Positions 190 to 20,122 of a stretch of DNA of 20,122 bases are shown piece after piece (position 1 is the stretch's first letter; each line of letters begins with the position of its first letter). The notes under the pieces were generated by a model. It ran no database searches and was not told the origin of the DNA. It saw only the letters and a list, made by a program, of their open reading frames with translations. This DNA is from a virus: positions 1-20,122 of the IMG/VR virus record IMGVR_UViG_3300040856_001600. One strand, given 5' to 3'. The position numbers and the translations under genes were made by a program.

Positions 190-621
190 TTATATTGCCT
201 TTAGATTTTGAAGTGCTTCTTTGAGAATTTTTGAACCGCCTACTCTTACATTAATAATTCCGTTATAATACTCGTCTGTTTCTAATACACGGCGTTCAAA
301 TTGTTCTCTAGCCTCGAGATAACTCATTAGGCCTCTACTGTTGCAAATATATAAAATTTCTCTTGTGAATTTTTCTGGACCAAGTGCCTCTACGTCTGCC
401 TGTAAATGATCTGAAGATCCCCAATAGTCTCTCCAATCACTTTCAATTTTGCTTCTTCTTTTGTTTTTTTTGCCTTTAAGTGGTGGGCGTGTTTTTTTGA
501 ATTTGGCTAGTTTTTTGCCTATGTACTTGCGATTGTTGGTAGTATTCGTTATCAGATAGACAAAACCTTCGCAATCTGCGGGAAGTTCTTGTATTTTTTT
601 GCCCTGATAAGTCCACTCCAT
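190..621 (-). CDS. GIY-YIG family endonuclease, SegE-like
   Basis: This 143-residue protein carries the two signature strands of the GIY-YIG nuclease fold near its N-terminus: GFVYLI at residues 19-24 in place of GIY, and KYIGKK at 32-37 for YIG. Then come a basic stretch (40-58), DYWGSS (65-70), a helix with YLEAREQ (101-107) whose Glu103 or Glu106 is the likely metal ligand, and a late Asn in YYNGIINV (118-125). Length and motif order fit the SegE-type GIY-YIG proteins of T4-like phages. They cut DNA and may act in homing or in degradation of competing DNA; which applies here is unknown. It starts 18 bases after the 76-residue gene, with only a weak ribosome site (GGTAAG), so it is probably co-transcribed with genes 47 and 46. 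Confidence 0.75.
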   Translation of the reverse strand: MEWTYQGKKIQELPADCEGFVYLITNTTNNRKYIGKKLAKFKKTRPPLKGKKNKRRSKIESDWRDYWGSSDHLQADVEALGPEKFTREILYICNSRGLMSYLEAREQFERRVLETDEYYNGIINVRVGGSKILKEALQNLKAI

Positions 622-3722: not shown

Positions 3723-4574
3723 TTAATAGTCCGCTTTTGGACGTCTCATATTTTTGTAGAACTCTGCAAGTTTTTCTTTGTCTTCTTTAAACACTTCTTC
3801 ATTCTGTCTAGTGAATGATGGATTCAAACCGTTTTCTTGTAGGATATCATCACGAATGTTTTGATTTTTCTTTTCAATGTTCAATACCCTAGTAAATGAA
3901 TTTGTAACTGCGGCAGTGTAATAAGCAAATGGATTTAAACTTTTGCTTTCATCAAACTGTAAACCAATCTGTGAAAGTTGTAGCACAGCCTGTGCTCTCA
4001 TCTCATCATTGTAAGTGTAACCACGCCAGTTACTTCTTGTACCATAACGATCAGCAAGTTTTAGAAACATGCGTCCTAGGCTTTCAGTCATGCGTCCGTG
4101 ATCCTTGCTAAAGTGGCCATTGTGAATACCGCCCTGCCAGTGGCTTTTACCTACACAAATCAAGTTATCATTTTCGTCATATTTCCAATGTTGGAATGGA
4201 GGAAAGTTAACTTTTGTGTGTTCATCTGCCCTAGTTTTTGTTTTGCGTTTGCGTCCTGGTTCTAGTGGAATATGATCAAAAGTCATAATCCTAAAAATCA
4301 AGTCTGTTTTTTCAATTTTACGCCAATCTGGCAAACAATCTGCTTGTTTTACTTTTCTTTTTTCTTCTTTTGCTTTTTCATATGCGGCTTTACCGATTCT
4401 GTCGGCTTGATTACGCTTTGCCTGTGCAATACTAAGTCTGTTAACTTTTTCTAAACTTGGTAAAATTATGTCATGTTGTGCATGTTCGTCGTCTACAAAC
4501 GAGCAATAAGTACACTTGCTGATATGAATCTCTGATAGTAGATCTTTATTTGTTAAGTATTTCGTTCTTTTCAT
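3723..4574 (-). CDS. 55: gp55-like sigma factor for late transcription
   Basis: The recognisable core is at residues 160-245: an RSNWRGYTYNDEMR stretch, then IGLQFDESKSLNPFAYYT, then FTRVLNIEKKNQ. This resembles sigma region 2 as found in T4-type gp55, the phage sigma that directs host RNA polymerase to TATAAATA-type late promoters with help from the sliding clamp. At 283 residues it is about 100 longer than T4 gp55 (185), mainly through an N-terminal extension with CTYC and HAQH (Cys21, Cys24, His31, His34) and a very basic stretch (50-80, 105-116). Start choice is supported by GGAG a few bases upstream. It is adjacent to 47-46, in the same relative order as T4, and opposite a late promoter. 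The identity rests on remembered family similarity of the core. Confidence 0.82.
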   Translation of the reverse strand: MKRTKYLTNKDLLSEIHISKCTYCSFVDDEHAQHDIILPSLEKVNRLSIAQAKRNQADRIGKAAYEKAKEEKRKVKQADCLPDWRKIEKTDLIFRIMTFDHIPLEPGRKRKTKTRADEHTKVNFPPFQHWKYDENDNLICVGKSHWQGGIHNGHFSKDHGRMTESLGRMFLKLADRYGTRSNWRGYTYNDEMRAQAVLQLSQIGLQFDESKSLNPFAYYTAAVTNSFTRVLNIEKKNQNIRDDILQENGLNPSFTRQNEEVFKEDKEKLAEFYKNMRRPKADY

Positions 4575-4597
4575 TAGATTCTCCGATTAATATAAGT

Positions 4598-4626
4598 ATT
4601 ATAAACTACGCAGTTAAAAAAAGCAA
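4598..4626 (-). promoter_or_regulatory. Sigma70-type promoter for gene 55
   Basis: Read leftward, TTGCTT (4626-4621), 17 bases, then TATAAT (4603-4598). The -10 box is perfect and the -35 box matches three of six. The predicted start near 4591 leaves a leader of about 17 bases with the GGAG site of gene 55. The -35 box shares two bases with the rightward late element at 4625-4632, and the spacer is the upstream box of that late promoter. Confidence 0.65.
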
Positions 4627-4640
4627 TAAATATTGTTATA
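4601..4640 (+). promoter_or_regulatory. Two-part late promoter for the baseplate block
   Basis: AATAAATA at 4625-4632 differs by one base from the T4 late box TATAAATA and is followed by TTGTTA. An upstream box ATAAACTACGCAGTTAA at 4601-4617 recurs at the same distance (24 bases start to start) before gene 6. Over 4601-4639 versus 11411-11449 I count 32 of 39 identical bases. With T4-like geometry transcription would start near 4638, giving an 18-base leader with AAGGA (4643-4647) before the ATG at 4656. Function is inferred from position and repetition. Confidence 0.65.
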
Positions 4641-4655
4641 AAAAGGAACCAAAAT

Positions 4656-5456
4656 ATGGCAGGAAATAATCCAAACAGTTTTATAGACAAAGTAGGTAGT
4701 TTCGGTGGTAAGTTCGCTAAGAGCGCCGCACAAGCAACAGGTATCGGACAAAACCCCGGCGCAGTACGAGGTTTAGGAAAACTTATTGGCGATAAAAACC
4801 TACAAAGGCTTGGATTGGATTTAGCCCCTGGAGGTGAGAGACCATACCAGTCTCCTCCGTCAACGCATTTAGCAACTATAGATAATCGAGTCAAAATAAA
4901 AATTGATACAAGGTACTTAAAAGGTCCTGCGGCAATACTAGACGACCTAGGTGGAGTAGTATTTCCTTTTACACCACAAATAGTTGTAACCACAAGAGCA
5001 AATTATGCACCAGTACATCCTACACACAGTAATTATCAGTTTCAATCGTACCAGAACTCACAAGTGGATTCACTGTCTATTGTCGGAACATTTACTGCAC
5101 AAAACACAGAAGAAGCACGTATGCTACTTGGTAGCATTCATGCACTAAGAACTGTAACTAAAATGCACTTTGGTAGTGGACCTAAAGTTGGTGCACCCCC
5201 GCCTCTTTGTAGACTTTCTGGTTATGGAGAATACATGTTTAATGATGTTCCTGTTGTTATAGGTAACTTTTTCTATACACTAAACGAAGATGTAGACTAT
5301 ATTGATGTAGCCACAACAGAAGGTGCAAAAACAACAGTACCATCAAGAGCAGAATTTACAGTAGAATGTTTACCAGCATACAGCAGAAGAGATCAAGCAC
5401 AATTTTCTATGGACGGATATGCAACAGGTGATATGAGATTTAAAGGAATGATATAA
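4656..5456 (+). CDS. Baseplate tail-tube cap/initiator protein, gp48/gp54-like
   Basis: This 266-residue protein opens the late block. The N-terminal 60 residues are Gly/Ala-rich and probably flexible. The rest is beta-rich, with features I associate with the tube-like baseplate proteins of marine T4-like phages: FPFTPQIVV (residues 103-111), HPTHSNYQFQSYQNS, a GTFTAQNTEEAR segment, LRTVTKMHFG, and APPPLCRLSGYGEYMFNDVPVVI followed by FFYTLNEDVDYI. In T4, gp48 and gp54 sit on the baseplate and nucleate the tail tube; both are longer (about 364 and 320). I cannot say which of the two it corresponds to. The start has AAGGA nine bases upstream. Its stop overlaps the next start (TAATG), implying coupling to gene 53. 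Confidence 0.55.
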   Translation: MAGNNPNSFIDKVGSFGGKFAKSAAQATGIGQNPGAVRGLGKLIGDKNLQRLGLDLAPGGERPYQSPPSTHLATIDNRVKIKIDTRYLKGPAAILDDLGGVVFPFTPQIVVTTRANYAPVHPTHSNYQFQSYQNSQVDSLSIVGTFTAQNTEEARMLLGSIHALRTVTKMHFGSGPKVGAPPPLCRLSGYGEYMFNDVPVVIGNFFYTLNEDVDYIDVATTEGAKTTVPSRAEFTVECLPAYSRRDQAQFSMDGYATGDMRFKGMI

Positions 5457-5749
5457 TGTATAAAGAAAGCAGTTTATACGGAGCAACTTCTATAATAGAT
5501 GGCGAGTTAGATATTTTAAATTACAGAAAAATTCCTGGTGTTGCTAGTGACGTTCCATACGTTATCAAACCACAGTACAATTACAGACCTGATCTATTGG
5601 CTAGCGATCTTTATGAAGATCCTAATTTATGGTGGGTGTTCAAGAGTCGAAACCCTAATGAATTAGAAGATCCTATTTTTGATTTTGTTGCTGGAGTAGA
5701 AATCAAGATTCCGAAGTTGGATACTATTAAACGTATATTAGGAGTTTAG
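5456..5749 (+). CDS. 53: gp53-like baseplate wedge subunit
   Basis: This short protein of 97 residues matches the conserved part of the gp53 family: a tyrosine- and proline-rich start, then YRPDLLASDLYEDPNLWWVF (about 44-63), RNPNELEDPIFDF, and a LysM-like end with a lone I-x-I-P strand (VEIKIPKLDTI). In T4, gp53 is 196 residues and locks neighbouring wedges together at the baseplate hub; this version keeps roughly half the length. The start overlaps the upstream stop by one base, and AGGA lies eight bases before it. The next gene begins two bases beyond the stop. Confidence 0.75.
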   Translation: MYKESSLYGATSIIDGELDILNYRKIPGVASDVPYVIKPQYNYRPDLLASDLYEDPNLWWVFKSRNPNELEDPIFDFVAGVEIKIPKLDTIKRILGV

Positions 5750-9102: not shown

Positions 9103-10962
9103 ATGGCAATTTTTAATAAAACACTTAAAGCCGGCGGACAAATTAATGACGCTAAAGCAGAAAAAATAGCCGATCTTTCTTCAGGTCCAGGCCCGTATAT
9201 GGCTGTTGTTGAAAGTAATGCAGATTATACAAAGCACGGAAGTTTAAGCGTAAGCATTCTTGGAAATCAAGACTCGCTACGTTCAGTAACATCGGGTAGG
9301 ATTTCTTGTAGAGTCATGTTACCATTTTATAGTGTAAAAGATTATGCTAATGCAGGTAAAGATCCACAAAAGTTTGAAGATACACAACAAAGTTACGGTA
9401 TGGTATTTCCTGCTCCACAGGTAGGAACAAAAGGATTAGTAATATTCATAAACAAAAATATAGAACAAGCAGTCTGGATTGGAGCACTTGCTGAACCTGA
9501 AATGAATCATCAGATTCCGGACTATGCCGCCAAAACAGATATTTCTACAGATGATGACACATACAATGAACTAAGTCCGGGACCAGACGGGTTACCTGTT
9601 AGTAATTACAACAAAGCCGCATTTATTGGTCAAACAGGTGACAATAAAATTAAACATCCAGTTCATCCTATTGCTTATACTCTTAAAGAACAAGGATTAC
9701 TTGCTGATAAAATTAGAGGACTTACATCGTCTAGTCATAGAAGAGATGCTGTTAATCATGTGTTCGGTATTAACACTCCTGGAAGATATGTTGGTAAAGA
9801 AAGATTAGTTGGAGCCGAGCAAGCCAAAGTAAAAGTAACACAACCAGGCGGTCACGTATTTGTAATGGACGACGGCGATAGCCTTGGTGATAATAATTTA
9901 ATTAGACTACGTACTAAAGGTGGTCATCAAATACTTTTACATGATACTGATGATTTAATATACATTGGTAATTCAAAAGGTACTGCTTGGATTGAACTTA
10001 CATCTGATGGTAAAATGGATGTGTTCTGTGATGACAGTATTAGTATGCGTACTAGAGGTGATTTTAATCTTTATGCTGATAGAGATTTTAATGTTGAAGC
10101 AAAAAGAAATATCAATATGAAAGCATTCAATTATGTAAAACAAGAGTCCAATCATCATAGACAGATTGTAAACGGGTCACAAAGAATTATGGTTAAGGGG
10201 AATAGTGATATTAAAACTCTTAACAGTCGTTTAGATACAAATGATTATCAAGTTAACACAAACAATTTAAGTATTGCAAACAGAATTGATACAAAAATAC
10301 AAAGCGGTAACTTTGATTTAGCGACTACATTAGGTATTAGGCAAACAGCAGGAACTAGTGTAAACATCAAAGCAAATTCTAGCACAGCAATTACAGAAAC
10401 GTTTATAGCAACTGATGTTTATAGCAAAGGATATACAACTACTTTCATAAACAAAGACGATGAATTAAAATTTTATCAAGCACTAAAAAGAACACAAGAC
10501 CCCGATACACTAGAAGCCATTGATCCTAACAATACCGAGTATTGGACAGAATTTGCAGGGCCTGAACACAAAGCAGGCGCCAGTAATGGACAAATTAATA
10601 TTAGTACTACACAAAATGATATTTCAATTGATACTAGCGGTGCTAACATCAATGTTGAAACAGACAAAATTGTGTATGTAGATGGTACTGAAGCAGTACA
10701 TTTGAACTTACCAGGACCGGGTGCTAAACCTAATATCAGTGCATACAATTCTGCCCCACAACCTAGCAGATTTATTGACCATATGGGAGTTATTCAGATG
10801 TGGGAAAAAGAAGTAACAGCCAAATGGGAAGGATACAACTATTATAGATCAGCGTCATTTGAGTCTATACTAAAACGTGTTCCAACTCATGAGCCTTATG
10901 ATCAGCATGAAAACTTAAATCCTCAGGCTGTTAAAAAACTTTCAACTGATAGAGAAACATAG
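9103..10962 (+). CDS. 5: gp5-like baseplate hub/spike protein, no lysozyme domain
   Basis: This is the central spike of the baseplate, which in T4 pierces the outer membrane. Order in the 619 residues: an OB-fold-like domain (about 28-135, with YMAVVESNADYTKHGSLSVSI and VGTKGLVIFI), a linker (136-240) with HPVHPIAY and FGINTPGRYVG, then a VgrG/gp5-type region from GGHVFVMDDGD (249-259) through LIRLRTKGGHQILLHDTDD and SKGTAWIELTSDGK into repeating short strands of a beta-helix (about 300-430, again near 495-540). The C-terminus carries VPTHEPYDQHENLNP, which I recall from cyanophage gp5 proteins. T4 gp5 has a 170-residue lysozyme domain between OB fold and helix; the 100-residue linker here has neither the space nor its motifs. 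AGGAA precedes the ATG. Confidence 0.85.
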   Translation: MAIFNKTLKAGGQINDAKAEKIADLSSGPGPYMAVVESNADYTKHGSLSVSILGNQDSLRSVTSGRISCRVMLPFYSVKDYANAGKDPQKFEDTQQSYGMVFPAPQVGTKGLVIFINKNIEQAVWIGALAEPEMNHQIPDYAAKTDISTDDDTYNELSPGPDGLPVSNYNKAAFIGQTGDNKIKHPVHPIAYTLKEQGLLADKIRGLTSSSHRRDAVNHVFGINTPGRYVGKERLVGAEQAKVKVTQPGGHVFVMDDGDSLGDNNLIRLRTKGGHQILLHDTDDLIYIGNSKGTAWIELTSDGKMDVFCDDSISMRTRGDFNLYADRDFNVEAKRNINMKAFNYVKQESNHHRQIVNGSQRIMVKGNSDIKTLNSRLDTNDYQVNTNNLSIANRIDTKIQSGNFDLATTLGIRQTAGTSVNIKANSSTAITETFIATDVYSKGYTTTFINKDDELKFYQALKRTQDPDTLEAIDPNNTEYWTEFAGPEHKAGASNGQINISTTQNDISIDTSGANINVETDKIVYVDGTEAVHLNLPGPGAKPNISAYNSAPQPSRFIDHMGVIQMWEKEVTAKWEGYNYYRSASFESILKRVPTHEPYDQHENLNPQAVKKLSTDRET

Positions 10963-10968
10963 TAAATA
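10961..10968 (+). promoter_or_regulatory. Possible late promoter box before gene 25
   Basis: AGTAAATA followed by GTGTTATGG. The box overlaps the gene 5 stop codon and ends five bases before the gene 25 ATG, the same geometry as at gene 6. It has no upstream ATAAACTACGCA box (that region is gene 5 coding sequence). Gene 25 lacks a visible Shine-Dalgarno site. Two mismatches to TATAAATA make this the weakest of the three candidates. Confidence 0.35.
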
Positions 10969-10973
10969 GTGTT

Positions 10974-11408
10974 ATGGCAAAGTATACCGATATTGTAATT
11001 AAACCAAATCCTAATACGCTAGGAAATGAGAATAGCCGAAGCAATCTCTATAGAGGTATTAGTACGGTTAGTCAACAAACACCAACCTTTCAGAGTTATG
11101 ATCTTGAGTTGATTAAGCAGGATTTAGTAAACCATTTTAACATTCGTAAAGGTGAAAAAATTTATAATCCAGAATTTGGGACAATTATTTGGGACGCACT
11201 TTTTGAACCATTTACAGACCAAGTTAAAGAAGCAGTTTTACAAGATGTTAAACAGATTATTGATGCTGATCCTAGAGTGCAGATTGATAGTTTAGCGTTA
11301 GTTGAAAAGGAATACGGACTACAAATACAATGTGTGTTATTTTATGTTGATTATGATGTTTCTGAAGCATTACAATTTACTTTTGATAAAGCAAATGCTT
11401 TAGCATAA
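10974..11408 (+). CDS. 25: gp25 baseplate wedge subunit
   Basis: This 144-residue member of the GPW/gp25 family is the small wedge protein that joins the inner baseplate to the first sheath ring. The family hallmark runs IRKGEKIYNPEFGTIIWD (about 57-74), with the conserved EFG and Trp, followed by the LFEPF turn, a helix (TDQVKEAVLQDVKQII), DPRVQI, and a two-strand sheet ending near 133. The first 45 residues are an extension without clear motif. Length is near T4 gp25 (132). It lies 11 bases after gene 5 and directly before gene 6, the T4 order 25-6. No ribosome site is visible before the ATG, which may relate to the promoter box ending five bases upstream. Confidence 0.93.
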   Translation: MAKYTDIVIKPNPNTLGNENSRSNLYRGISTVSQQTPTFQSYDLELIKQDLVNHFNIRKGEKIYNPEFGTIIWDALFEPFTDQVKEAVLQDVKQIIDADPRVQIDSLALVEKEYGLQIQCVLFYVDYDVSEALQFTFDKANALA

Positions 11409-11410
11409 AA

Positions 11411-11450
11411 ATAAACTACGCACTTAATAAGGAAAATAAATACTGTTATG
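11411..11450 (+). promoter_or_regulatory. Two-part late promoter for gene 6, second copy of the repeated module
   Basis: AATAAATA (11435-11442) with upstream box ATAAACTACGCACTTAA (11411-11427) fills the whole 39-base gap between genes 25 and 6. It is the partner of the module at 4601-4639 (32 of 39 identical, identical spacing). T4-like geometry puts the transcript start on the A of the gene 6 ATG at 11448. An AAGGA (11429-11433) lies 14 bases before the ATG, too far for normal use and upstream of the predicted start. Confidence 0.65.
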
Positions 11451-14400
11451 GCAAGTACAGATAGACAAAATTCACTTTTAGCAAACCAAGATTGGGACAA
11501 GATCTATAAAGCATTCTCTAATGCAGACTTTAGTTCTTATGATTTTCCTACACTACGTAGGACTATGATTGCATATCTAAGAGCAAACTATCCTGAAGAC
11601 TTTAACGATTACATTGAAAGTTCTGAATACCTTGCACTCATTGACATGATTGCATTTTTAGGACAAAGTTTATCTTACAGATTTGATTTAAATGCCAGAG
11701 AAAATTTTATTGAATTAGCAGAAAGACGTGATAGTGTTTTGCGTCTTGCAAGACTAGTAGGATACAATCCTACTCGTAACGTACCTAGCAATGGATTATT
11801 AAAAGTAATAGGAGTACAAACAACAGATAATGTACAAGACAGTTTAGGTAATAGTTTAGAAAATACATTTATTAACTGGAACGATGATACTAATAGTAAT
11901 TGGTTAGAACAGTTTCAAGTCATAATCAATAATAGTTTACAGGGTAGTGGTGTAATTGGTAAGCCTGATCAAAGTGATATAATTGATGGAGTAATAACCG
12001 AACAATATAAAATTAATACTCAAAATACTGATGTACCATTATATACATTTAATAAAAATGTAACTGGTAGATCTATGCAATTTGAAGTAACAAGTGCCGG
12101 CATTGAAGACAATTCGATTGTTGAAGAAACTCCATTTCCGAGCAGAGTTCTTGGTATGCTTTATAAAAACGATAAGCGTGGAAACAGTTCACCTAACACA
12201 GGATTTTTCTTTCATTTTAGACAAGGGCAATTACAAAGTTCTACATTTACAATAACTGATCCAAGTCCAAACGAAATTGTAAACATTGATATTCCTGGAA
12301 TTAATAATTCTGATGTATGGTTATGGCAACTTAGCAGAAACGGAACTCCAGAAATAGAGTGGACTAAACTAGATTCAATTTACGGAAGCAATGTAATTTT
12401 CAATAGTGTTAACAAAAATATTAGAACACTTTATAATGTAACAACAAGAGACAATGATCAAGTTAGTTTAAATTTTGCAGATGGCAGTTTTGGAGATTTG
12501 CCTTTAGGTACTTTCAGAGTTTACTATAGAACTTCAAATGGGCTAACTTATACTATTAGACCTAATGATATGCAAAATATCATTTTAACTATCCCATATT
12601 TTAATAAAAAAGGTCAAGGTCATACACTAACTGTACAGTTAAGTTTAGAAGCAAGTTTAACAAATGCAAGTGCAACTGAAACAACAGCAAATATTAGAAC
12701 AAACGCACCACAAAGTTTTTATACACAAAACAGAATGATTACTGGAGAAGATTATAATTCTTATCCTTTAACAGCAAGTAATAATGTAATTAAAATCAAA
12801 TCAGTAAACAGAGTTAGTTCTGGGATTTCAAGACAGTTTGAAATTCAAGATCCTACAGGAAAATACAGTTCTGTTAATTTAATGGCAGATGATGGCATAC
12901 TTTATAAAAATCCTTATGAAAGTGATTTTAACTTTTCATTCCAAACACGTAATGATATTTTAGGTGTAATTAGAAATACTATTGAACCTATTATTAATAG
13001 TTTACCAACTAAAGCATTTTATTATGACAAGTTTCCAAGAATTATAACAAGTGATATTAATATTGATTGGGTAAGATCAACCGAGTCAAGTACAAACAGT
13101 ACAGGTTACTTTAGAAATACAATTAATGGCTCACCTATTACTGTAGGCACATTTACAACAAATAATTTTAAGTTTATTGGACCAGACAGTTTAGTAAAGT
13201 TTGAGCCACCAGAAGGAAAATATTTCTTAGTAGACGGAACAATAGTTTCGACAAAAACTAAAAATAGTTTAAATTACATTTGGGCAAAAGTTGTTCAAGT
13301 AAGTGGTGACGGTTCAAACGGCGGACAAGGTAATTTAGATGACGGTACTGGTCCTATTGTGTTTAGTGAAAACATTCCGTCACTTGCTATTCCAAGTTTA
13401 ATTGTTCCTAATATTGTAACAAACTTTCCAAGTGATTTAGAATTACAATTAGTTGATTTAATTTTTAACTATAAGACATTTGGTATTCGTTATGATCAAA
13501 GTGCTAAAGAGTGGAAAATTATTGTAAACGCTAACCTAAACACTAAAGACGATTTTAGTTTAGAACGACAAGGTGATATAACAGGTTCTAAACTAGATAA
13601 GAGTTGGTTTGTATTATTTGAAACTGACGGTGAAACATACTCGATCACTTATAGAGGATTAGATTATAGATTTGAAAGTGAACAATTAATTCAGTTTTTT
13701 GTTGACAAAGGTATTAAGAAATACGATAGCGAAACTGGAAATGTAATTAAAGATCAAGTTAAGGTTTTAAAAATAAACGAAGATCCTGTTGAAGATAAGA
13801 TTTTAGAAAAAGATTATCAGTGGGAAATTATTGGTAGTGTATTAAACAACGACGGATTTGAAGAAGTAAACAAAGTAAGAGTTAATTTTTATGATTCAGA
13901 CGATGATGGTATGATTGATGATCCAGATAGTTTTGTAAAAATTGTCCAACCAACAAATGTTGACGGTAGAGGTTATAAGGACAAATTTGTTTTCTTCCAA
14001 AGTACAACTGATAATGGTATAACAACTACAACAAAAGTTGATAGTTCTAAATTTGTAATTTTTGACAAAGAAGCAAATGTAAGTTCATTAGTTGGGTTTG
14101 AAACAGGACAGTTATTTTATTTCTATGATAGCAGAGAAGACGTTGTTAAAGTATTTGATAGTGTAAGTGGTACACTTACTTTAGACACTTCTTATTTTGC
14201 AAGACCTGGTAGAGATGGATTAAAATTCCAATATAATCATAATGCACAAAATGATAGAAGACTTGATCCTGGTAAAACAAATATTATTGATATGTATGTT
14301 TTAACAAGAGCATATGATGAAGATTATAGAATTTTTGTAAACAGTGGCGGCATAGAACCAATTAAACCTACAAGTGCTTCTCTAAGACTTGAACTCAACG

Positions 14401-14921
14401 GAACACTAAATGGTGTTAAATCAATTAGCGATGAGATTATATATCATGCTGTAAACTACAGACCGTTATTTGGAGTTAACGCAGATACAGAATTACAAGC
14501 AACATTTAAAGTTGTAAAAAGTGCAGGAAGCACAATAAGTGATAATGAAATTAAAAGTAATATTATTCAAGCAGTGAATGATTTCTTTGCTATTGATAAT
14601 TGGGACTTTGGTGATACATTTTATTTTACAGAACTAGCAACTTTTGTACAACAGCAAACTGCACCCGATGTAGCAAACTTTGTTATTGTACCTAGAAGCG
14701 GTTCACAAGCATTTGGTAGTTTGTATCAGATTAAATGTCGTGCAGATGAAATCTTTATTAGTACAGCATCAGTTGACAACGTAGAAATAATTGATCAAAT
14801 TACAGCAAATAATTTGAAAGCAGATGGCAATGTTGTTTCATCTGTAGATGCAGGTGGTACAGTTTCGGTGTCCACTGCAAATAGTGGAACTACTACTAGT
14901 AGTGGATCTAGCGGTTACTAA
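11448..14921 (+). CDS. 6: gp6 baseplate wedge subunit (BaseplateJ-like), enlarged
   Basis: gp6 forms the ring that ties the wedges around the hub. The N-terminal 130 residues are highly typical: DWDKIYKAFSNADFSSYDFPTLRR, YIESSEYLALIDMIAFLGQSL, YRFDLNARENFIELAERRDSVLRLARLVGY. A BaseplateJ-like core follows (about 215-470, including VSLNFADGSFGDLPLGTFRVYYR and NRMITGEDYNSYPL). The C-terminal end has LRLELNGT and the IIQAVNDFFAIDNWDFGDTFYFTEL segment near 1040. At 1157 residues it is much larger than T4 gp6 (660), through insertions between about 520 and 960. One of these holds an EF-hand-like loop at 816-827. The last 25 residues are a Ser/Thr/Gly tail. The ATG at 11448 is the first in frame and starts the conserved sequence. 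Confidence 0.93.
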   Translation: MASTDRQNSLLANQDWDKIYKAFSNADFSSYDFPTLRRTMIAYLRANYPEDFNDYIESSEYLALIDMIAFLGQSLSYRFDLNARENFIELAERRDSVLRLARLVGYNPTRNVPSNGLLKVIGVQTTDNVQDSLGNSLENTFINWNDDTNSNWLEQFQVIINNSLQGSGVIGKPDQSDIIDGVITEQYKINTQNTDVPLYTFNKNVTGRSMQFEVTSAGIEDNSIVEETPFPSRVLGMLYKNDKRGNSSPNTGFFFHFRQGQLQSSTFTITDPSPNEIVNIDIPGINNSDVWLWQLSRNGTPEIEWTKLDSIYGSNVIFNSVNKNIRTLYNVTTRDNDQVSLNFADGSFGDLPLGTFRVYYRTSNGLTYTIRPNDMQNIILTIPYFNKKGQGHTLTVQLSLEASLTNASATETTANIRTNAPQSFYTQNRMITGEDYNSYPLTASNNVIKIKSVNRVSSGISRQFEIQDPTGKYSSVNLMADDGILYKNPYESDFNFSFQTRNDILGVIRNTIEPIINSLPTKAFYYDKFPRIITSDINIDWVRSTESSTNSTGYFRNTINGSPITVGTFTTNNFKFIGPDSLVKFEPPEGKYFLVDGTIVSTKTKNSLNYIWAKVVQVSGDGSNGGQGNLDDGTGPIVFSENIPSLAIPSLIVPNIVTNFPSDLELQLVDLIFNYKTFGIRYDQSAKEWKIIVNANLNTKDDFSLERQGDITGSKLDKSWFVLFETDGETYSITYRGLDYRFESEQLIQFFVDKGIKKYDSETGNVIKDQVKVLKINEDPVEDKILEKDYQWEIIGSVLNNDGFEEVNKVRVNFYDSDDDGMIDDPDSFVKIVQPTNVDGRGYKDKFVFFQSTTDNGITTTTKVDSSKFVIFDKEANVSSLVGFETGQLFYFYDSREDVVKVFDSVSGTLTLDTSYFARPGRDGLKFQYNHNAQNDRRLDPGKTNIIDMYVLTRAYDEDYRIFVNSGGIEPIKPTSASLRLELNGTLNGVKSISDEIIYHAVNYRPLFGVNADTELQATFKVVKSAGSTISDNEIKSNIIQAVNDFFAIDNWDFGDTFYFTELATFVQQQTAPDVANFVIVPRSGSQAFGSLYQIKCRADEIFISTASVDNVEIIDQITANNLKADGNVVSSVDAGGTVSVSTANSGTTTSSGSSGY
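13893..13928 (+). other. EF-hand-like calcium loop inside gp6
   Basis: This codes for D816-S-D-D-D-G-M-I-D-D-P-D827. Acidic residues fall at loop positions 1, 3, 5, 9 and 12, with Gly at 6 and Ile at 8, the spacing of an EF-hand or dockerin-type calcium loop. It is part of the insertion relative to T4 gp6. Confidence 0.45.
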
Positions 14922-14932
14922 TAGGATTATAA

Positions 14933-17900
14933 ATGGCATATAGCGACAAACAAGGTACACCAGTAAACATAGAAAACAAAGACAAGTTAAGAAACAGTGC
15001 TGACTTGTTACCTATGTACTTTCGTACAGAAGCAAACAAAAAGTTTCTTGGCGCAACAGTTGACAGTTTAATCAGCAAAGGTAATTTAGATAGGTTAAAT
15101 GGATTTGTTGGTGCTAGGAATACCGAAAACGCATCTTCTAAAGATGTTTATATTTCAGAACCAACTGCAAATAGAAGAAGATATAACTTCCTTCCATCGG
15201 CAGTAACTAAAAATCCTGTTGATAATTCAAACAAATGGACAGGTACATATGACGATCTAATTAATCAATTAGAATTCTTTGGCGGCATAACAGATAACCA
15301 CGACAAACTATTTCAAGCAGAATATTTTGCTTGGAATCCGATGTTCGATTTTGACAAGTTTGTAAATTACAGACAGTACTATTGGCTTTCACAAGGTCCA
15401 GACCCAGTAAGTGTTTCAGGAAATCCTGGCAATACTGAAAGTGAATATTCAGTTACAAATAGCGGACAAAATAGTTTTGTGTTTACGCCAAACGGATTTA
15501 GCGAAAATCCAACAGTTGTATTATACAGAGGTGGTACATACAAATTTAAAGTTAATGCAACAGGTCATCCTTTTTATATTAAGACTACAAATACAATCGG
15601 TATAGGTGATCAATACAATGACGGTGTTGAAAATAATGGTGCAGAGAGTGGAACTATTACATTTACTGTTCCTGTAAATGCACCTGATAGATTATTTTAT
15701 GCTTGTCAGTATCATCAATCAATGCAAGGTACACTAGAAATTCGTGATACTTCTCAAGATTTAACAATTGATGTTGAACAAGAAATTATTGGAAAAGCAA
15801 ACTTTACAAGTGCTAATGGTGTAAAACTTACAAACGGAATGAAAATTAATTTTGTAGGCGATGTTTTACCTACAAAGTATAGAGAAAAGAATTGGTATGT
15901 TGAAGGTGTAGGCGATAGAATTACACTAATTGATGAAACAGAATTAGATACACCCGAACTATATGCTAAAAATGCTGAATATGAATTTGATGTTGACCCA
16001 TTTGATGATACACCATATGACGATACTGAAAATAGTCCTTTAACAGCAGAGTATATTACAATTAATCGTGCAAGTAAAGATAAAAACCCATGGAGTAGAT
16101 ATAACAGATGGGTGCATAAAGATGTAATTGAACTAAGTGCAGAGTATAATAATACATCACCTGTACTTGATGAAAATAATAGAGCAGTAAGACCTATTTT
16201 AGAATTCAAACCTAATCTTAAACTGTTTAACTTTGGTGAAAAAGGTATTGGCAATGTTGATTTAATTGATACAGATACAACAGATGCAATGAGTGATGTA
16301 GAAGGATCCTTTGGATATCACGTTGATGAAGTATTATTACGCAAAGGTATGCGTGTAATTTTTAATGCTGATCCAGATATCACAGTAAAAGGTAAAGTAT
16401 ACGAAGTTGATTTTGTAGAATATGAAGGACAAGAACGTTTACATCTAATTGAAAAATATACACCTATGGTTAACGATAGTGTTGTTGCCACAGATGGTGC
16501 TGTAAATCAAGGTGTGTCATATTATTATAATGGCACTGAATGGGTCAAAGCACAAGTTAAAACAGAATTGAACCAAAGTCCTTTGTTTGATTTGTTCGAT
16601 AGTAGTGCAAACAGTTTTTCAAACACAACAAATTACTTTTCATCTAACTTCCAAGGCAATGCTATTGCAAGTTATAAGCGTGGTGTAGGAGCAAATGATC
16701 CTGTACTAGGTTTTCCGATCAGTTATCAAAATATCAATAACGTAGGTGATATTACATTTGAGTTCAATTGGGACGATAGCGAGTTTACATACCAAGAAAA
16801 TAACATATTAACAACTGTTGATACTGCTAGTGGTTTGGTTTATGATTATAACGATGAAAAATATTATAGTGGCTGGCAACTTGTAAAAGATAAAGTTACA
16901 AGACAGAGAATTTTGCAGTTATTAGACATAGTACAAACTACAGATACTATTATTGTTAATTGCATAAAAGAACCTTACAAGTATGATTTAGACATTATTG
17001 CTGAATATAACGGTGTTACCTATAAAGAAACAACTGATTTTGAAAAAATTATTGACAAAAATAGAGCATCCTATCAGTTAAAATTTAAAACTCCAATCGA
17101 AGGAGGTACAAGAGTAACACTAAAAGTTCTTACTGATCAAAAACCTAATGACAATGGATTTTATGAACCACCGATCAACCTAACGAACAATGGTGAAAAT
17201 AACGATTTGCGTACATTTACACTTGGTAGTGTTAGTGATCACTTTAAAACTATATTCCAAACCAATGCAATCATTACAGGAAAGTCGGTAGGACCTAACA
17301 ATGCTAGAGATGTGTATAATATTCATCTAGATGGTAGTAGATATGTTAAACATAAGGGTAGTGTTTTACCTGCAATACTTTTCTTAATTCAAGAAGATTT
17401 AAATTTTGTCAACTCTATGCGTAAGACAGGCAGAGATTATAACTTCTTTAAAGATCAGTTTATTGAAAAAGCAGGAAAAATTGAAAGAAGTGAAAATATT
17501 GCTTCAGATGTAGATAAAATTTTATATGAATTAAGTATTAACAAGTCAAGCGAAGCATCGTACTTTTATTCAGATATGGCAGGCTTTGGTAAAAAAGTCG
17601 AACGCCTACAGTTTGAAGTAAAAAACGGAACGCAAAATGTATTTGCAATTAACAATGCGTTCGATACAACCAAAGTAAGCGATCGTGCAGTGTATGTGTA
17701 CTTGAATGATGTACAATTATATCTCGATACAGACTATGAGTTCGATGCTGTAGACAATACTGTTACAATTAAAAAAGCATTATCAGTTGGTGATGTAATC
17801 AAAGTTAATGATTACGATACTACTGGTTCAGTTATTCCTCACACTCCAACTAAACTTGGTTTATACCCTGCGTTTGTTCCTGAAATATTCGTAGACGACA

Positions 17901-20122
17901 GTTATCTAACAGCAACAAAAGTAATTCAAGGCCATGATGGTAGTATTACAAAAGCATTTGACGATGAACGTGATGAATTAATCTTAGAATTAGAAAAGCG
18001 TATCTATAATAACCTTAAAGTAAAGTATAATAGAGATGTTTTTGATATTTTAAAACAAGTTCCTGGAAAATATAGAACAAATACATTTACCGCTAACGAA
18101 TTTAACAAAGTATTAAGAACAGATTTTGGTTATTGGAAGAGTTTATTTGACATTGATTATGAAACAAACAGTGTAACAGTAGACGCTAATCCGTTTTCGT
18201 ATAACTTTAACACAATGATCAGTGTTGACGATCAGCGTTTACCGGGTTATTGGAGAGCAATTTACAAATCATACTTTGATACTGATCGACCTCATACACA
18301 TCCGTGGGAAATGCTAGGTATTACAATTAAACCTACATGGTGGGACGAAGTTTATGGCCAAGCACCTTATACTAGTGGAAACAAAATTCTTTGGGACGAC
18401 ATTGAAAGAGGGTTGGTAAGAGATCCAAGTGGTAATAAAATATATTCGGATTTTGCCAGACCTGGTTTATCTAAAAATCTACCAGTTGACGAATACGGTG
18501 ATTTAATAGATCCTAGTAAAATTAATATTGTTAAGGCAATATTTGTTACAGAAATCAAAAATGATTGGAAATACGGTGATGAAGGTCCGGCAGAAACTTC
18601 ATGGAGAAAATCTAGTTGGTATCCTTTTGCATTACAGAATGCAGTAGCACTAACAAAACCTGCACAATACTTTGGTAGTCAGTTTGATACTAATCAAAAT
18701 CAAATTACTGCAAGTGGAAATGTTGTTTATGCTGACACAGGAAAGATTTTCAATCTAAAAGAAGCAAAAATTAAAGACTTGTTGTTTAGCAATAAGAGAT
18801 TTTTAGGACTAGGATACCATGTACCTATGGTTGAATATCTCAAGAGTTTTTCAAAAGACGTTAAAGAAACATTTTATGATACATTAAGAAATACGTCAAG
18901 TAACCTAACTTATAAACTAGGCGGCTTTGCAAACAAAAACAGATTAAGAGTATTAGCAGAAAGTTCTAATCCTAATACCGCTGATAATAGTGTTTTCCTT
19001 CCTAGCGAAAACTATCAACTTACACTAAGAAAAAGTAATCCTATTAACAGTGTAAGAATAAGTGGTATGATTGTTGAAAAAACAACCAAAGGATTTTTAA
19101 TTAGAGGTTATGATACACTACGTCCATGGTTTAATATCTATAAACCAAAGCATGGACAGAATGATATTGGAATCAATGTAGGCGGCACAGAAGCAAAGTT
19201 TGTTATTTGGAGTTCAGGAAAATTTTACGGTGAAAAGCAAATTGTAGAATTTAGTGGAAAATATTTTAGAGTAAAAACAAACCATACAAGTACAGAAACA
19301 TTTGATAATGACAAGTTTACATCTTTAGGTGAGTTACCTGTAACTGGTGGAGCAGAAGTTGCTAAAGCAAGATCATTTGAAAGCAAAGTAACTGAAGTCA
19401 GTTACGGAACTGTATATGCAAGAGCACAAGAAGTATATGACGTAATTCTTGGATACGAACATTGGTTGAAAGAACAAGGGTTTGTTTTTGACAAGTATCA
19501 AAGAGAAACATTATCAGTGCAAGACTGGGATCTAAGTGCAAAAGAATTTTTATACTGGACAACACAAAATTGGGCAGAAGGTAGTGTTGTTGCACTAAGT
19601 CCTTTTGCAGACAATTTAGAATTTGAATACAAGTATGCAACTGTAGACAGTGTCCTTAACAGTTTTTATGAATATAGTATTTTAAGTGCTAATGGAGCAC
19701 CATTAGAAAAAGAGGCTCTAAGCATTGTTAGAGGCAGTGGTAAGTTTTCACTTTCTACAAAGGGAACACAAAAAGGAATTTTCTTTGCTGTATTAAATCT
19801 AGTACAGTGGGAACACATTGTAGTATTTGATGATAAGAGTCAATTTGGTGATGTAATCTATGACCAAGAAGCAGGTTACAGACAAAAACGTATCAAGTTA
19901 GTTGGATTTAAAACAAGCGAGTGGGACGGTGATTATGTTAGTCCTGGGTTTGTATTTGACGAAGCAGTAGTAGAAGATTACGTTCAAGGACGTGATTACA
20001 ATCTTGGTGATGTTGTAAGATTTAAGAGCAAATTTTATAGTGCAAGTAAATTTTTACCTGCAACAAAAACATTTAATTTTAGCGATTGGGTGTTTATCGG
20101 CGACAAGCCTGTTGCAGAATTA
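14933..20122 (+). CDS. Giant virion structural protein in the gene 7 position, 3' end outside window
   Basis: From the ATG at 14933 (AGGA six bases upstream, eleven bases after gene 6) the frame stays open for 1730 codons to the window edge. It follows gene 6, where T4 has wedge gene 7 (1032 residues), and matches in style the very large structural proteins at this place in marine T4-like phages: LERLNGF-like NLDRLNGFVGARN near residue 48, FAWNPMFDFDKFVNYRQYYWL, KNPWSRYNRWVHKDVIEL near 385, and PGYWRAIYKSYFDTDRPHTHPWEMLG near 1105. A cupredoxin-like domain (about 165-270) is inserted near the N-terminus. No transmembrane or enzymatic motif was seen. Probable role is a peripheral wedge or tail-fibre attachment component; equivalence to gp7 is inference from order. 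Confidence 0.75.
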   Translation, partial: MAYSDKQGTPVNIENKDKLRNSADLLPMYFRTEANKKFLGATVDSLISKGNLDRLNGFVGARNTENASSKDVYISEPTANRRRYNFLPSAVTKNPVDNSNKWTGTYDDLINQLEFFGGITDNHDKLFQAEYFAWNPMFDFDKFVNYRQYYWLSQGPDPVSVSGNPGNTESEYSVTNSGQNSFVFTPNGFSENPTVVLYRGGTYKFKVNATGHPFYIKTTNTIGIGDQYNDGVENNGAESGTITFTVPVNAPDRLFYACQYHQSMQGTLEIRDTSQDLTIDVEQEIIGKANFTSANGVKLTNGMKINFVGDVLPTKYREKNWYVEGVGDRITLIDETELDTPELYAKNAEYEFDVDPFDDTPYDDTENSPLTAEYITINRASKDKNPWSRYNRWVHKDVIELSAEYNNTSPVLDENNRAVRPILEFKPNLKLFNFGEKGIGNVDLIDTDTTDAMSDVEGSFGYHVDEVLLRKGMRVIFNADPDITVKGKVYEVDFVEYEGQERLHLIEKYTPMVNDSVVATDGAVNQGVSYYYNGTEWVKAQVKTELNQSPLFDLFDSSANSFSNTTNYFSSNFQGNAIASYKRGVGANDPVLGFPISYQNINNVGDITFEFNWDDSEFTYQENNILTTVDTASGLVYDYNDEKYYSGWQLVKDKVTRQRILQLLDIVQTTDTIIVNCIKEPYKYDLDIIAEYNGVTYKETTDFEKIIDKNRASYQLKFKTPIEGGTRVTLKVLTDQKPNDNGFYEPPINLTNNGENNDLRTFTLGSVSDHFKTIFQTNAIITGKSVGPNNARDVYNIHLDGSRYVKHKGSVLPAILFLIQEDLNFVNSMRKTGRDYNFFKDQFIEKAGKIERSENIASDVDKILYELSINKSSEASYFYSDMAGFGKKVERLQFEVKNGTQNVFAINNAFDTTKVSDRAVYVYLNDVQLYLDTDYEFDAVDNTVTIKKALSVGDVIKVNDYDTTGSVIPHTPTKLGLYPAFVPEIFVDDSYLTATKVIQGHDGSITKAFDDERDELILELEKRIYNNLKVKYNRDVFDILKQVPGKYRTNTFTANEFNKVLRTDFGYWKSLFDIDYETNSVTVDANPFSYNFNTMISVDDQRLPGYWRAIYKSYFDTDRPHTHPWEMLGITIKPTWWDEVYGQAPYTSGNKILWDDIERGLVRDPSGNKIYSDFARPGLSKNLPVDEYGDLIDPSKINIVKAIFVTEIKNDWKYGDEGPAETSWRKSSWYPFALQNAVALTKPAQYFGSQFDTNQNQITASGNVVYADTGKIFNLKEAKIKDLLFSNKRFLGLGYHVPMVEYLKSFSKDVKETFYDTLRNTSSNLTYKLGGFANKNRLRVLAESSNPNTADNSVFLPSENYQLTLRKSNPINSVRISGMIVEKTTKGFLIRGYDTLRPWFNIYKPKHGQNDIGINVGGTEAKFVIWSSGKFYGEKQIVEFSGKYFRVKTNHTSTETFDNDKFTSLGELPVTGGAEVAKARSFESKVTEVSYGTVYARAQEVYDVILGYEHWLKEQGFVFDKYQRETLSVQDWDLSAKEFLYWTTQNWAEGSVVALSPFADNLEFEYKYATVDSVLNSFYEYSILSANGAPLEKEALSIVRGSGKFSLSTKGTQKGIFFAVLNLVQWEHIVVFDDKSQFGDVIYDQEAGYRQKRIKLVGFKTSEWDGDYVSPGFVFDEAVVEDYVQGRDYNLGDVVRFKSKFYSASKFLPATKTFNFSDWVFIGDKPVAEL
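15425..15748 (+). other. Cupredoxin-like domain within the giant structural protein
   Basis: Residues about 165-272 read as a small beta-sandwich with FVFTPNGFSENPTVVLYRGG, TYKFKVNATGHPFYIKT, an ITFTVPVNAPDRLFYACQYH segment and SMQGTLEI. His212 in the GHPF turn and Cys258, His261 and Met264 in CQYHQSM line up with the His, Cys, His, Met ligands of type 1 copper sites (plastocyanin has C-x2-H-x4-M; here C-x2-H-x2-M). Related YYCxxHxxM modules occur, as I recall, in other marine phage structural proteins. Confidence 0.6.

Follow-up and report, generated by a model that had tools for sequence, protein, structure and literature searches.

Two-part modules ahead of the structural genes

The window, by which we mean the whole stretch of DNA analysed, is a 20,122-base viral contig that belongs, judging from its gene content, with T4-like giant phages of the PA5oct, CBB, RaK2 and Atu_ph07 kind. 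It encodes the late sigma factor gp55 (family matches phrog_234, E 9e-25, and phrog_12791, E 7e-81) and two structural units on the opposite strand, the first headed by a virion structural protein whose family is placed by PHROGs in the head and packaging category and the second by the baseplate wedge protein gp6 (Table 1). SbcC/SbcD-like recombination subunits are also encoded, and a SegE-like GIY-YIG homing endonuclease (190-621, minus strand) lies downstream of their genes. After gp6, an open frame of 1730 aa (14933-20122, plus strand) continues past the end of the window; its match to CBM_5_12 is weak and under the cut-off.

Table 1. Promoter elements and genes of the window, with the 93-aa gene locus of a relative
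Feature	Position	Strand	Details
gp55, late sigma factor	3723-4574	-	283 aa; ~130-residue insert relative to T4
Probable divergent sigma70-like promoter of gp55	4598-4626	-	TTGCTT (4626-4621), 17 nt, TATAAT (4603-4598); by eye
Dyad-symmetric upstream box, copy 1, ATAAACTACGCAGTTAAA	4601-4618	+	predicted -37 to -20
T4-type late box ATAAATA	4626-4632	+	within AATAAATA (4625-4632); predicted +1 at 4638
Virion structural protein, phrog_12050	4656-5456	+	opens structural unit 1
Baseplate wedge subunit, phrog_7145	5456-5749	+	gp53-like, judged by position in relatives
Baseplate hub / tail lysozyme, gp5-like	9103-10962	+	
GTAAATA, probable late box of gp25	10962-10968	+	five nt ahead of gp25 ATG
gp25, baseplate wedge	10974-11408	+	
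Dyad-symmetric upstream box, copy 2, ATAAACTACGCACTTAAT	11411-11428	+	
T4-type late box ATAAATA	11436-11442	+	predicted +1 at 11448
gp6, baseplate wedge	11448-14921	+	1157 aa; phrog_10646, E 5e-299; opens structural unit 2
93-aa gene locus	G001 148586-148904	-	

A first-pass annotation had proposed a two-part late promoter ahead of each structural unit, and one copy does precede the unit that opens at 4656 and another the unit that opens at gp6 (11448). The downstream part, AATAAATA at 4625-4632 and 11435-11442, is a TATAAATA-type box at the -10 position. The upstream part contains the exact 12-mer ATAAACTACGCA, found at 4601 and 11411 and nowhere else in the window, and the modules at 4601-4639 and 11411-11449 are identical at 32 of 39 positions (82%) without a gap, as had been described. 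The start-to-start spacing from the upstream box to ATAAATA, given earlier as 24 bases, measures 25. In the available part of one T4 study (PMC2988020) the 8-bp late box starts at -13, where A replaces T at nine T4 sites. With the T4 box running from -13 to -6, the upstream box lies at -37 to -20, centred on -28.5; the earlier placement at -37 to -21 holds up to about -20, and the conserved block is longer than had been thought, at 18 bp. TGTTAT, common to both modules, overlaps the predicted start site and in the second module extends into the gp6 ATG (11448). The predicted +1 at 11448 coincides with the A of this ATG, so that gp6 mRNA is predicted to be leaderless.

The window holds two instances of ATAAACTACGCA combined with ATAAATA at spacing 25, whereas 100 shuffles gave none, and a search of the window for the two elements in reverse order gave no match. 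ATAAATA itself occurs only at 4626 and 11436 when both strands are searched, compared with a mean of 10.9 in shuffled sequence, as though it were avoided outside promoters. A sigma70 promoter with -35 and -10 hexamers was considered as a plus-strand reading of the module and rejected: a TTGACA-like hexamer followed after 16-18 nt by TATAAT had no match on the plus strand at 4400-4750, and the three weak matches at 11250-11550 (9-10 of 12 positions) all have something other than ATAAATA as second hexamer. At the probable gp25 late box GTAAATA (10962-10968), no upstream dyad was seen.

Conservation and symmetry of the upstream box

Loci of relatives were collected around gp55 (80) and gp6 (30). 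Among 164 distinct ATAAATA contexts (L001-L111), ATAAWVTRCGYA lay at spacing 25 in 34, at 24 and 26 in one each, at 13 in seven and at -12 in two. On the gp55 side, where 77 of the 80 loci were used (L053, L054 and L057 were omitted for lack of a usable start), a permissive pattern that admits TAGCA cores located the core hexamer 18-20 nt ahead of NTAAATA in 36 of 41 distinct upstream regions, the exceptions being L056, L062, L067, L079 and L080. A symmetric PWM trained on eight distinct gp55-side 18-mers only, which gives 99% of random 90-nt windows a score under 7.5, was applied to 26 of the 30 gp6 loci (L104, which is cut, and L109-L111, which are partial matches, were omitted). In 17 of these it placed the box 37-38 nt ahead of the ATG. 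In six more the best match lay 25-26 nt before a late-type box with a leader, scoring 15.5 in L098-L101 and a modest 10.4 in L102 and L107. Overall, 23 of the 26 gp6 loci have a box 25-26 nt before a late-type box, and no box was found by PWM in L105, L106 and L108 (36% identity). The spacing of 25 or 26 was maintained in gp6 loci down to 47% identity, and in L089, L091, L093 and L097 the upstream element is retained although the late box is now GTAAATA. A late box accompanied by a conserved upstream box thus stands before structural operons, at a spacing that is near-fixed where it had been called fixed.

Further copies were found at the same genes in many uncultured phages, so that the outcome named in advance as refuting the proposal, a lack of copies in relatives, did not arise among them, and a strict two-part pattern (gap 10-16) was present in 10 of 10 viral contigs; it was absent, however, from all nine cultured relatives searched whole. 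By eye, PA5oct alone among the cultured relatives has a box-like stretch at the gp55 side, and none was seen upstream of PA5oct gp6.

Copy 1 of the dyad overlaps the spacer and -10 of the probable divergent gp55 promoter. A TTGNNN-16/17-TATAAT-like sequence faces gp55 in 28 of 41 distinct regions, with a full TTGACA in two; a consensus promoter scan that needs four of six positions in the first hexamer reported a weak pair at 4617-4589 in place of the window's gp55 promoter. Conservation on the gp55 side is owed partly to this divergent promoter. Because gp25 runs in the same direction as gp6, the gp6 dyad needs a reason of another kind. It might be argued that the box has no function, being a copied promoter of common origin, or that its conservation is that of the opposite-strand gp55 promoter alone, and both the near-identity of the window's two copies and the gp55-side overlap would fit. 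We give this very little credence, since no divergent promoter is expected between gp6 and the co-oriented gp25 and since the box survives changes in its flanks and in the late box (the GTAAATA loci) and recurs across IMG/VR.

An earlier IMG/VR scan with the exact 12-mer at spacing 24 had returned one stretch. Scanning with the left half of the box and ATAAATA at spacing 25, the right half being unconstrained, returned at least 119 stretches, the two scans differing in the looseness of the left half as well as in spacing; the same pattern at a control spacing of 32 returned 34. The 76 newly fetched loci out of 80 returned at spacing 25 represent 61 distinct contexts, which partly overlap the gp55 and gp6 contigs (e.g. 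L294, L305, L329 and L357) and are thus not fully independent of them. An ORF start lay within 45 nt in 56 of the 61, comprising 29 gp6-like, 12 tail-tube-like and 15 other contexts (gp25 and the gp55-side structural gene included), and five contexts had no such start. At the control spacing, 7 of 27 contexts had an ORF start, with none gp6-like and none tail-tube-like. These classes were defined by motifs near the N-terminus, and PHROGs agreed for three of three gp6-like and three of three tail-tube-like proteins checked. As the control yields matches, chance matches are to be expected in such a scan, but not at gp6-like or tail-tube-like genes.

The upstream box is an 18-bp dyad, ATWAACT-RCGY-AGTTWAT, around the core TRCGYA. 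Among 39 boxes gathered by eye, a procedure whose counts may favour look-alikes, the dyad fraction was 63% at this centre versus 16-37% at other centres. In the scan set the unconstrained right arm matched at 4.0 of 6 positions (40 distinct 18-mers), compared with 1.58 of 6 among the 24 distinct 18-mers of the control, and perfect palindromes exist (ATAAACTACGTAGTTTAT in L331 and ATAAAATGCGCATTTTAT in L317).

Predicted leaderless late genes, the 93-aa gene and the reach of the dyad

Three relatives, G001 (180 kb; loci L134-L142), G005 (113 kb; L143-L148) and G003 (79 kb; L149-L152), were examined together with the window for the distance from TAAATA to an ORF start. Counting ORFs of at least 50 codons, some of them orthologous so that the counts are not independent, the ATG lay exactly 5 nt on in 20 of 124 cases in G001, 9 of 63 in G005, 7 of 39 in G003 and 2 of 6 in the window, where the genes are gp25 (10962-10974) and gp6 (11436-11448). 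Distances of 0-4, 6 and 7 nt were empty in all four. Controls at 5 nt gave 1 of 79 in T4 (70-120 kb), 5 of 611 in PA5oct, and, for parts of the genomes, 0 of 56 in CBB, 1 of 127 in RaK2, 1 of 81 in a Vibrio phage and 1 of 69 in Atu_ph07. Within the clade ATAAATA was counted 10 times at the 5-nt distance, versus 4 for the best other permutation. On the T4 spacing, in which transcription starts 6 nt past the box, the start would be the A of the ATG, and leaderless mRNAs are predicted as a result. Reading the sequences in this manner, we predict that many late boxes of the clade yield leaderless mRNAs, those of gp25 and gp6 included, which is a sharp and easily testable start-site prediction. In the full-text literature searched, we found neither a leaderless class nor an upstream box at T4-type late promoters; the available part of the AR9 paper states that phage transcripts are often leaderless and holds nothing further on the topic.

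A gene for a 93-aa protein (MSRPKP...) belongs to a family present in at least 600 viral-contig stretches, of which 80 were kept for analysis (L194-L273; 74 distinct upstream regions). G precedes ATAAATA in 69 of the 74 and TATRCGTA follows it directly in 64. The segment ATRCGTA forms the left arm of a hairpin whose other arm lies at the start codon and whose loop holds an AAGGA-like sequence. At the R:Y position the pairing is G:C in 36 regions, A:T in 24 and G:T in 2, with 3 unscored and the 9 of 74 regions that have no left arm omitted from scoring. The predicted late start falls within the 5' arm, a geometry that lends indirect support to the T4 spacing in these phages. The 93-aa protein had been suspected as a regulator on account of the shared promoter core and was rejected in that role, because the core is one arm of this covarying hairpin. 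A search of PHROGs with the protein gave no match. Its AF2 model (pLDDT 89.5) is rich in beta structure and has a single long helix; no helix-turn-helix was seen in it, nor did any PDB entry match at E 0.001 or better, and the matches in a viral library were two uncharacterised phage proteins.

A hairpin at one late gene raises the question of whether the dyad itself works as RNA, for example as a small hairpin in read-through mRNA that serves processing. Its arms are able to pair around a 4-nt loop, and at the 93-aa gene the core TRCGYA does pair with another arm, and the two covary clearly. Between the dyad arms, however, covariation was absent in the 39-box set (p 0.43) and weak in the scan set (p 0.02), which makes a protein site likelier than an RNA helix. 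Furthermore, the upstream gene on the gp55 side is oppositely oriented, so that read-through mRNA is not expected there, and the spacing to the late box is maintained. An RNA role therefore appears quite improbable.

The dyad is confined to a minority of late promoters. With late-box sites defined as ATAAATA anywhere plus [AGT]TAAATA-N5-ATG, a dyad lay nearby at 4 of 40 sites in G001, 4 of 17 in G005 and 3 of 12 in G003, counts that rule out a general late-promoter element and overturn the view of the box as part of late promoters generally. Dyad-bearing sites recur at the gp55-side operon, gp6 and a gp26-like hub gene (spacing 13), with the 93-aa gene as a further site in G001 and G005; in other contigs the spacing before the 93-aa gene is mostly 27-30. 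Since the 93-aa core is a hairpin arm, its site at offset -3 was excluded from the dyad regulon. The small number of sites and the recurrence of the same genes point to a sub-regulon made up mainly of baseplate and tail genes. Across the contigs analysed, a late-type box lies no more than 45 nt from 88 of 97 distinct dyad sites, compared with a background of 6%; the training sites are part of this set, as are 19 sites of the 93-aa hairpin class (offset -3). Genome-wide, the strongest dyad scores alone exceed those of shuffled genomes, and weaker scores are no commoner.

Two sites stand somewhat apart. Between the gp26-like hub gene and a 768-aa ORF of G001, two ATAAATA boxes face each other, and each divergent transcript would, from the sequence, begin within the leader of the other; a dyad sits directly before one facing box at spacing 13 (L007 ~16029, L002 ~9024 and L006 ~16026). 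Our guess is that the 768-aa ORF, for which there is no family match, encodes the tape measure. In L146 a strong dyad, ATAAACTACGCATATAAA (17207-17224; G005 77207), has no late-type box nearby and adjoins an apparent inverted repeat.

A candidate regulator and its relation to known systems

A gp55-family sigma factor is present and, by its sequence, is the candidate reader of the late boxes; T4 gp55 (7d7c) matched the family profile with an E of 2e-8. The AF2 model of the window's gp55 is of middling confidence (mean pLDDT 70.6, pTM 0.52). Foldseek gave no match to it at E 0.001 or better (T4 gp55 7d7c, E 0.095), and alignment to 7d7c by VIA-align covered 94 residues with Z 9.1 and an rmsd of 2.5; most of the best matches from Foldseek and VIA-align 2 have sigma region 2 folds. 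As residues 6-238 of the model align with 10-113 of T4 gp55, the extra ~130 residues appear to be inserted after the N-terminal helix and ahead of region 2. A region-4-like domain in this extension found no support, the whole-protein model resembling sigma region 2. The longer gp55 could nevertheless be imagined to read the box itself in place of a -35 element, given that the box is located where a -35 would be and that the additional residues are conserved in 25 relatives. We judge this improbable: in the model the extra part appears insert-like, the site is two-fold symmetric, and the dyad is missing at most late-box sites. For the first two of these reasons the extra gp55 contact offered by the first-pass annotation is disfavoured.

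The reading that we favour, and to which we assign about an even chance, is that the dyad is the operator of a putative dimeric regulator acting at a few gp55-dependent late promoters of baseplate and tail-tube-like genes. This regulator is probably an activator, an activator being likelier because the spacing is near-fixed upstream at gp6 and on the gp55 side. What the sequences show is the dyad, its near-fixed spacing relative to the late box and its return at the same genes in diverged uncultured phages; we infer the regulator's binding, its dimerisation, the sign of its effect and its help to RNA polymerase carrying gp55. A putative dimer would sit on the dyad at about -37 to -20 and, once bound, would help the gp55-carrying polymerase at baseplate and tail promoters. 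Sigma region 4 is missing from the T4 late polymerase, which therefore need not occupy the DNA from -37 to -20, and neither the T4 nor the bacterial type of sliding clamp, the former being the activator of T4 late promoters, was recognised in the relatives searched. On the gp55 side, the bound protein could switch the structural operon on and gp55 down; as the dyad overlaps both the spacer and the gp55 -10, one bound protein could couple both directions.

A separate activator site, as suggested earlier, is thus still the best reading, and its main rival is a repressor operator. A dimer bound inside the polymerase footprint could delay or shut the baseplate late promoters, and gp55 with them, until it is removed. 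Sites within the footprint at several positions, 24-30 nt ahead of the late box and, at the gp26 site, 13 nt, do not share a single helical phase and suit a repressor at least as well, and the TTGNNN-16/17-TATAAT-like promoter on the gp55 side (28 of 41 regions) has its -10 and spacer under the dyad. The gp6 spacing of 25 or 26 down to 47% identity is, however, tighter than a repressor needs, and with the exception of the gp26 site the dyad is upstream of the late box and not over it. Repression is therefore a serious alternative that we hold to be unlikely.

A more far-reaching version of the activator reading would connect the dyad to the replication clamp. The C-terminal end of T4 gp55 binds the clamp; by inspection, the C-terminus of the window's gp55 has no clear match to that end. 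The clamp family PF02916 was recognised in T4 but in none of six cultured relatives and none of five viral contigs, in a search that a diverged clamp could escape and for which the window is a fragment; PF00712 was found in none of 12 records, with control genomes positive. The available part of the CBB paper reports no gp33 or gp45 (PMC5259590), and a review, as far as available, attributes gp33 orthologues to this supergroup (PMC7824862). It is conceivable, if rather doubtful, that clamp-driven late activation has been lost or reduced in this branch of T4-like phages, that a phage-coded dimer at about -28.5 replaces region 4 at a dedicated baseplate/tail regulon, and that many other late genes yield leaderless mRNAs straight from the late box.

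A symmetric box kept at near-fixed spacing before the same genes in diverged phages would amount to a separate control layer for one virion sub-assembly. If a dimer does replace the clamp there, it would show the rewiring of a replication-coupled switch. Both the dyad and the leaderless motif could help to flag late genes in uncultured phages.

Among known systems, the late motif ATAAATA of CBB and GAP32 comes from a phage supergroup shared with the window. The available part of the CBB paper describes ATAAATA before structural genes at 35 sites and mentions no upstream box (PMC5259590), and the CBB record has no match to the strict two-part pattern. The late start of the 93-aa gene inside a 5' hairpin arm follows the logic of T4 genes e, soc, 49 and I-TevI, in which the start region is concealed in an RNA helix (PMC3014915, available part); that type concerns an RNA hairpin at a different gene, and the dyad of the two-part promoter is a separate matter.

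The T4 late promoter consists of one short box served by a moving activator, the replication clamp. It likewise has an 8-bp TATAAATA-type box and a gp55 homologue. T4 late promoters lack sequence conservation at -35, a feature that most other late-box sites in the same genomes share, whereas the promoters described here have a dyad conserved from about -37 to -20; and T4 late transcription is activated by a sliding clamp, whereas no clamp family was recognised in the present relatives. T4 middle promoters combine a MotA box at about -30 with a sigma70 -10. The MotA family MotA_activ (PF09114) had no match in eight of eight records, in a search to which control genomes were silent too. The middle promoters likewise place an upstream activator box near a -10 element in lieu of a -35, but their partner is a sigma70 -10, whereas the box described here is a dyad whose partner is a late box.
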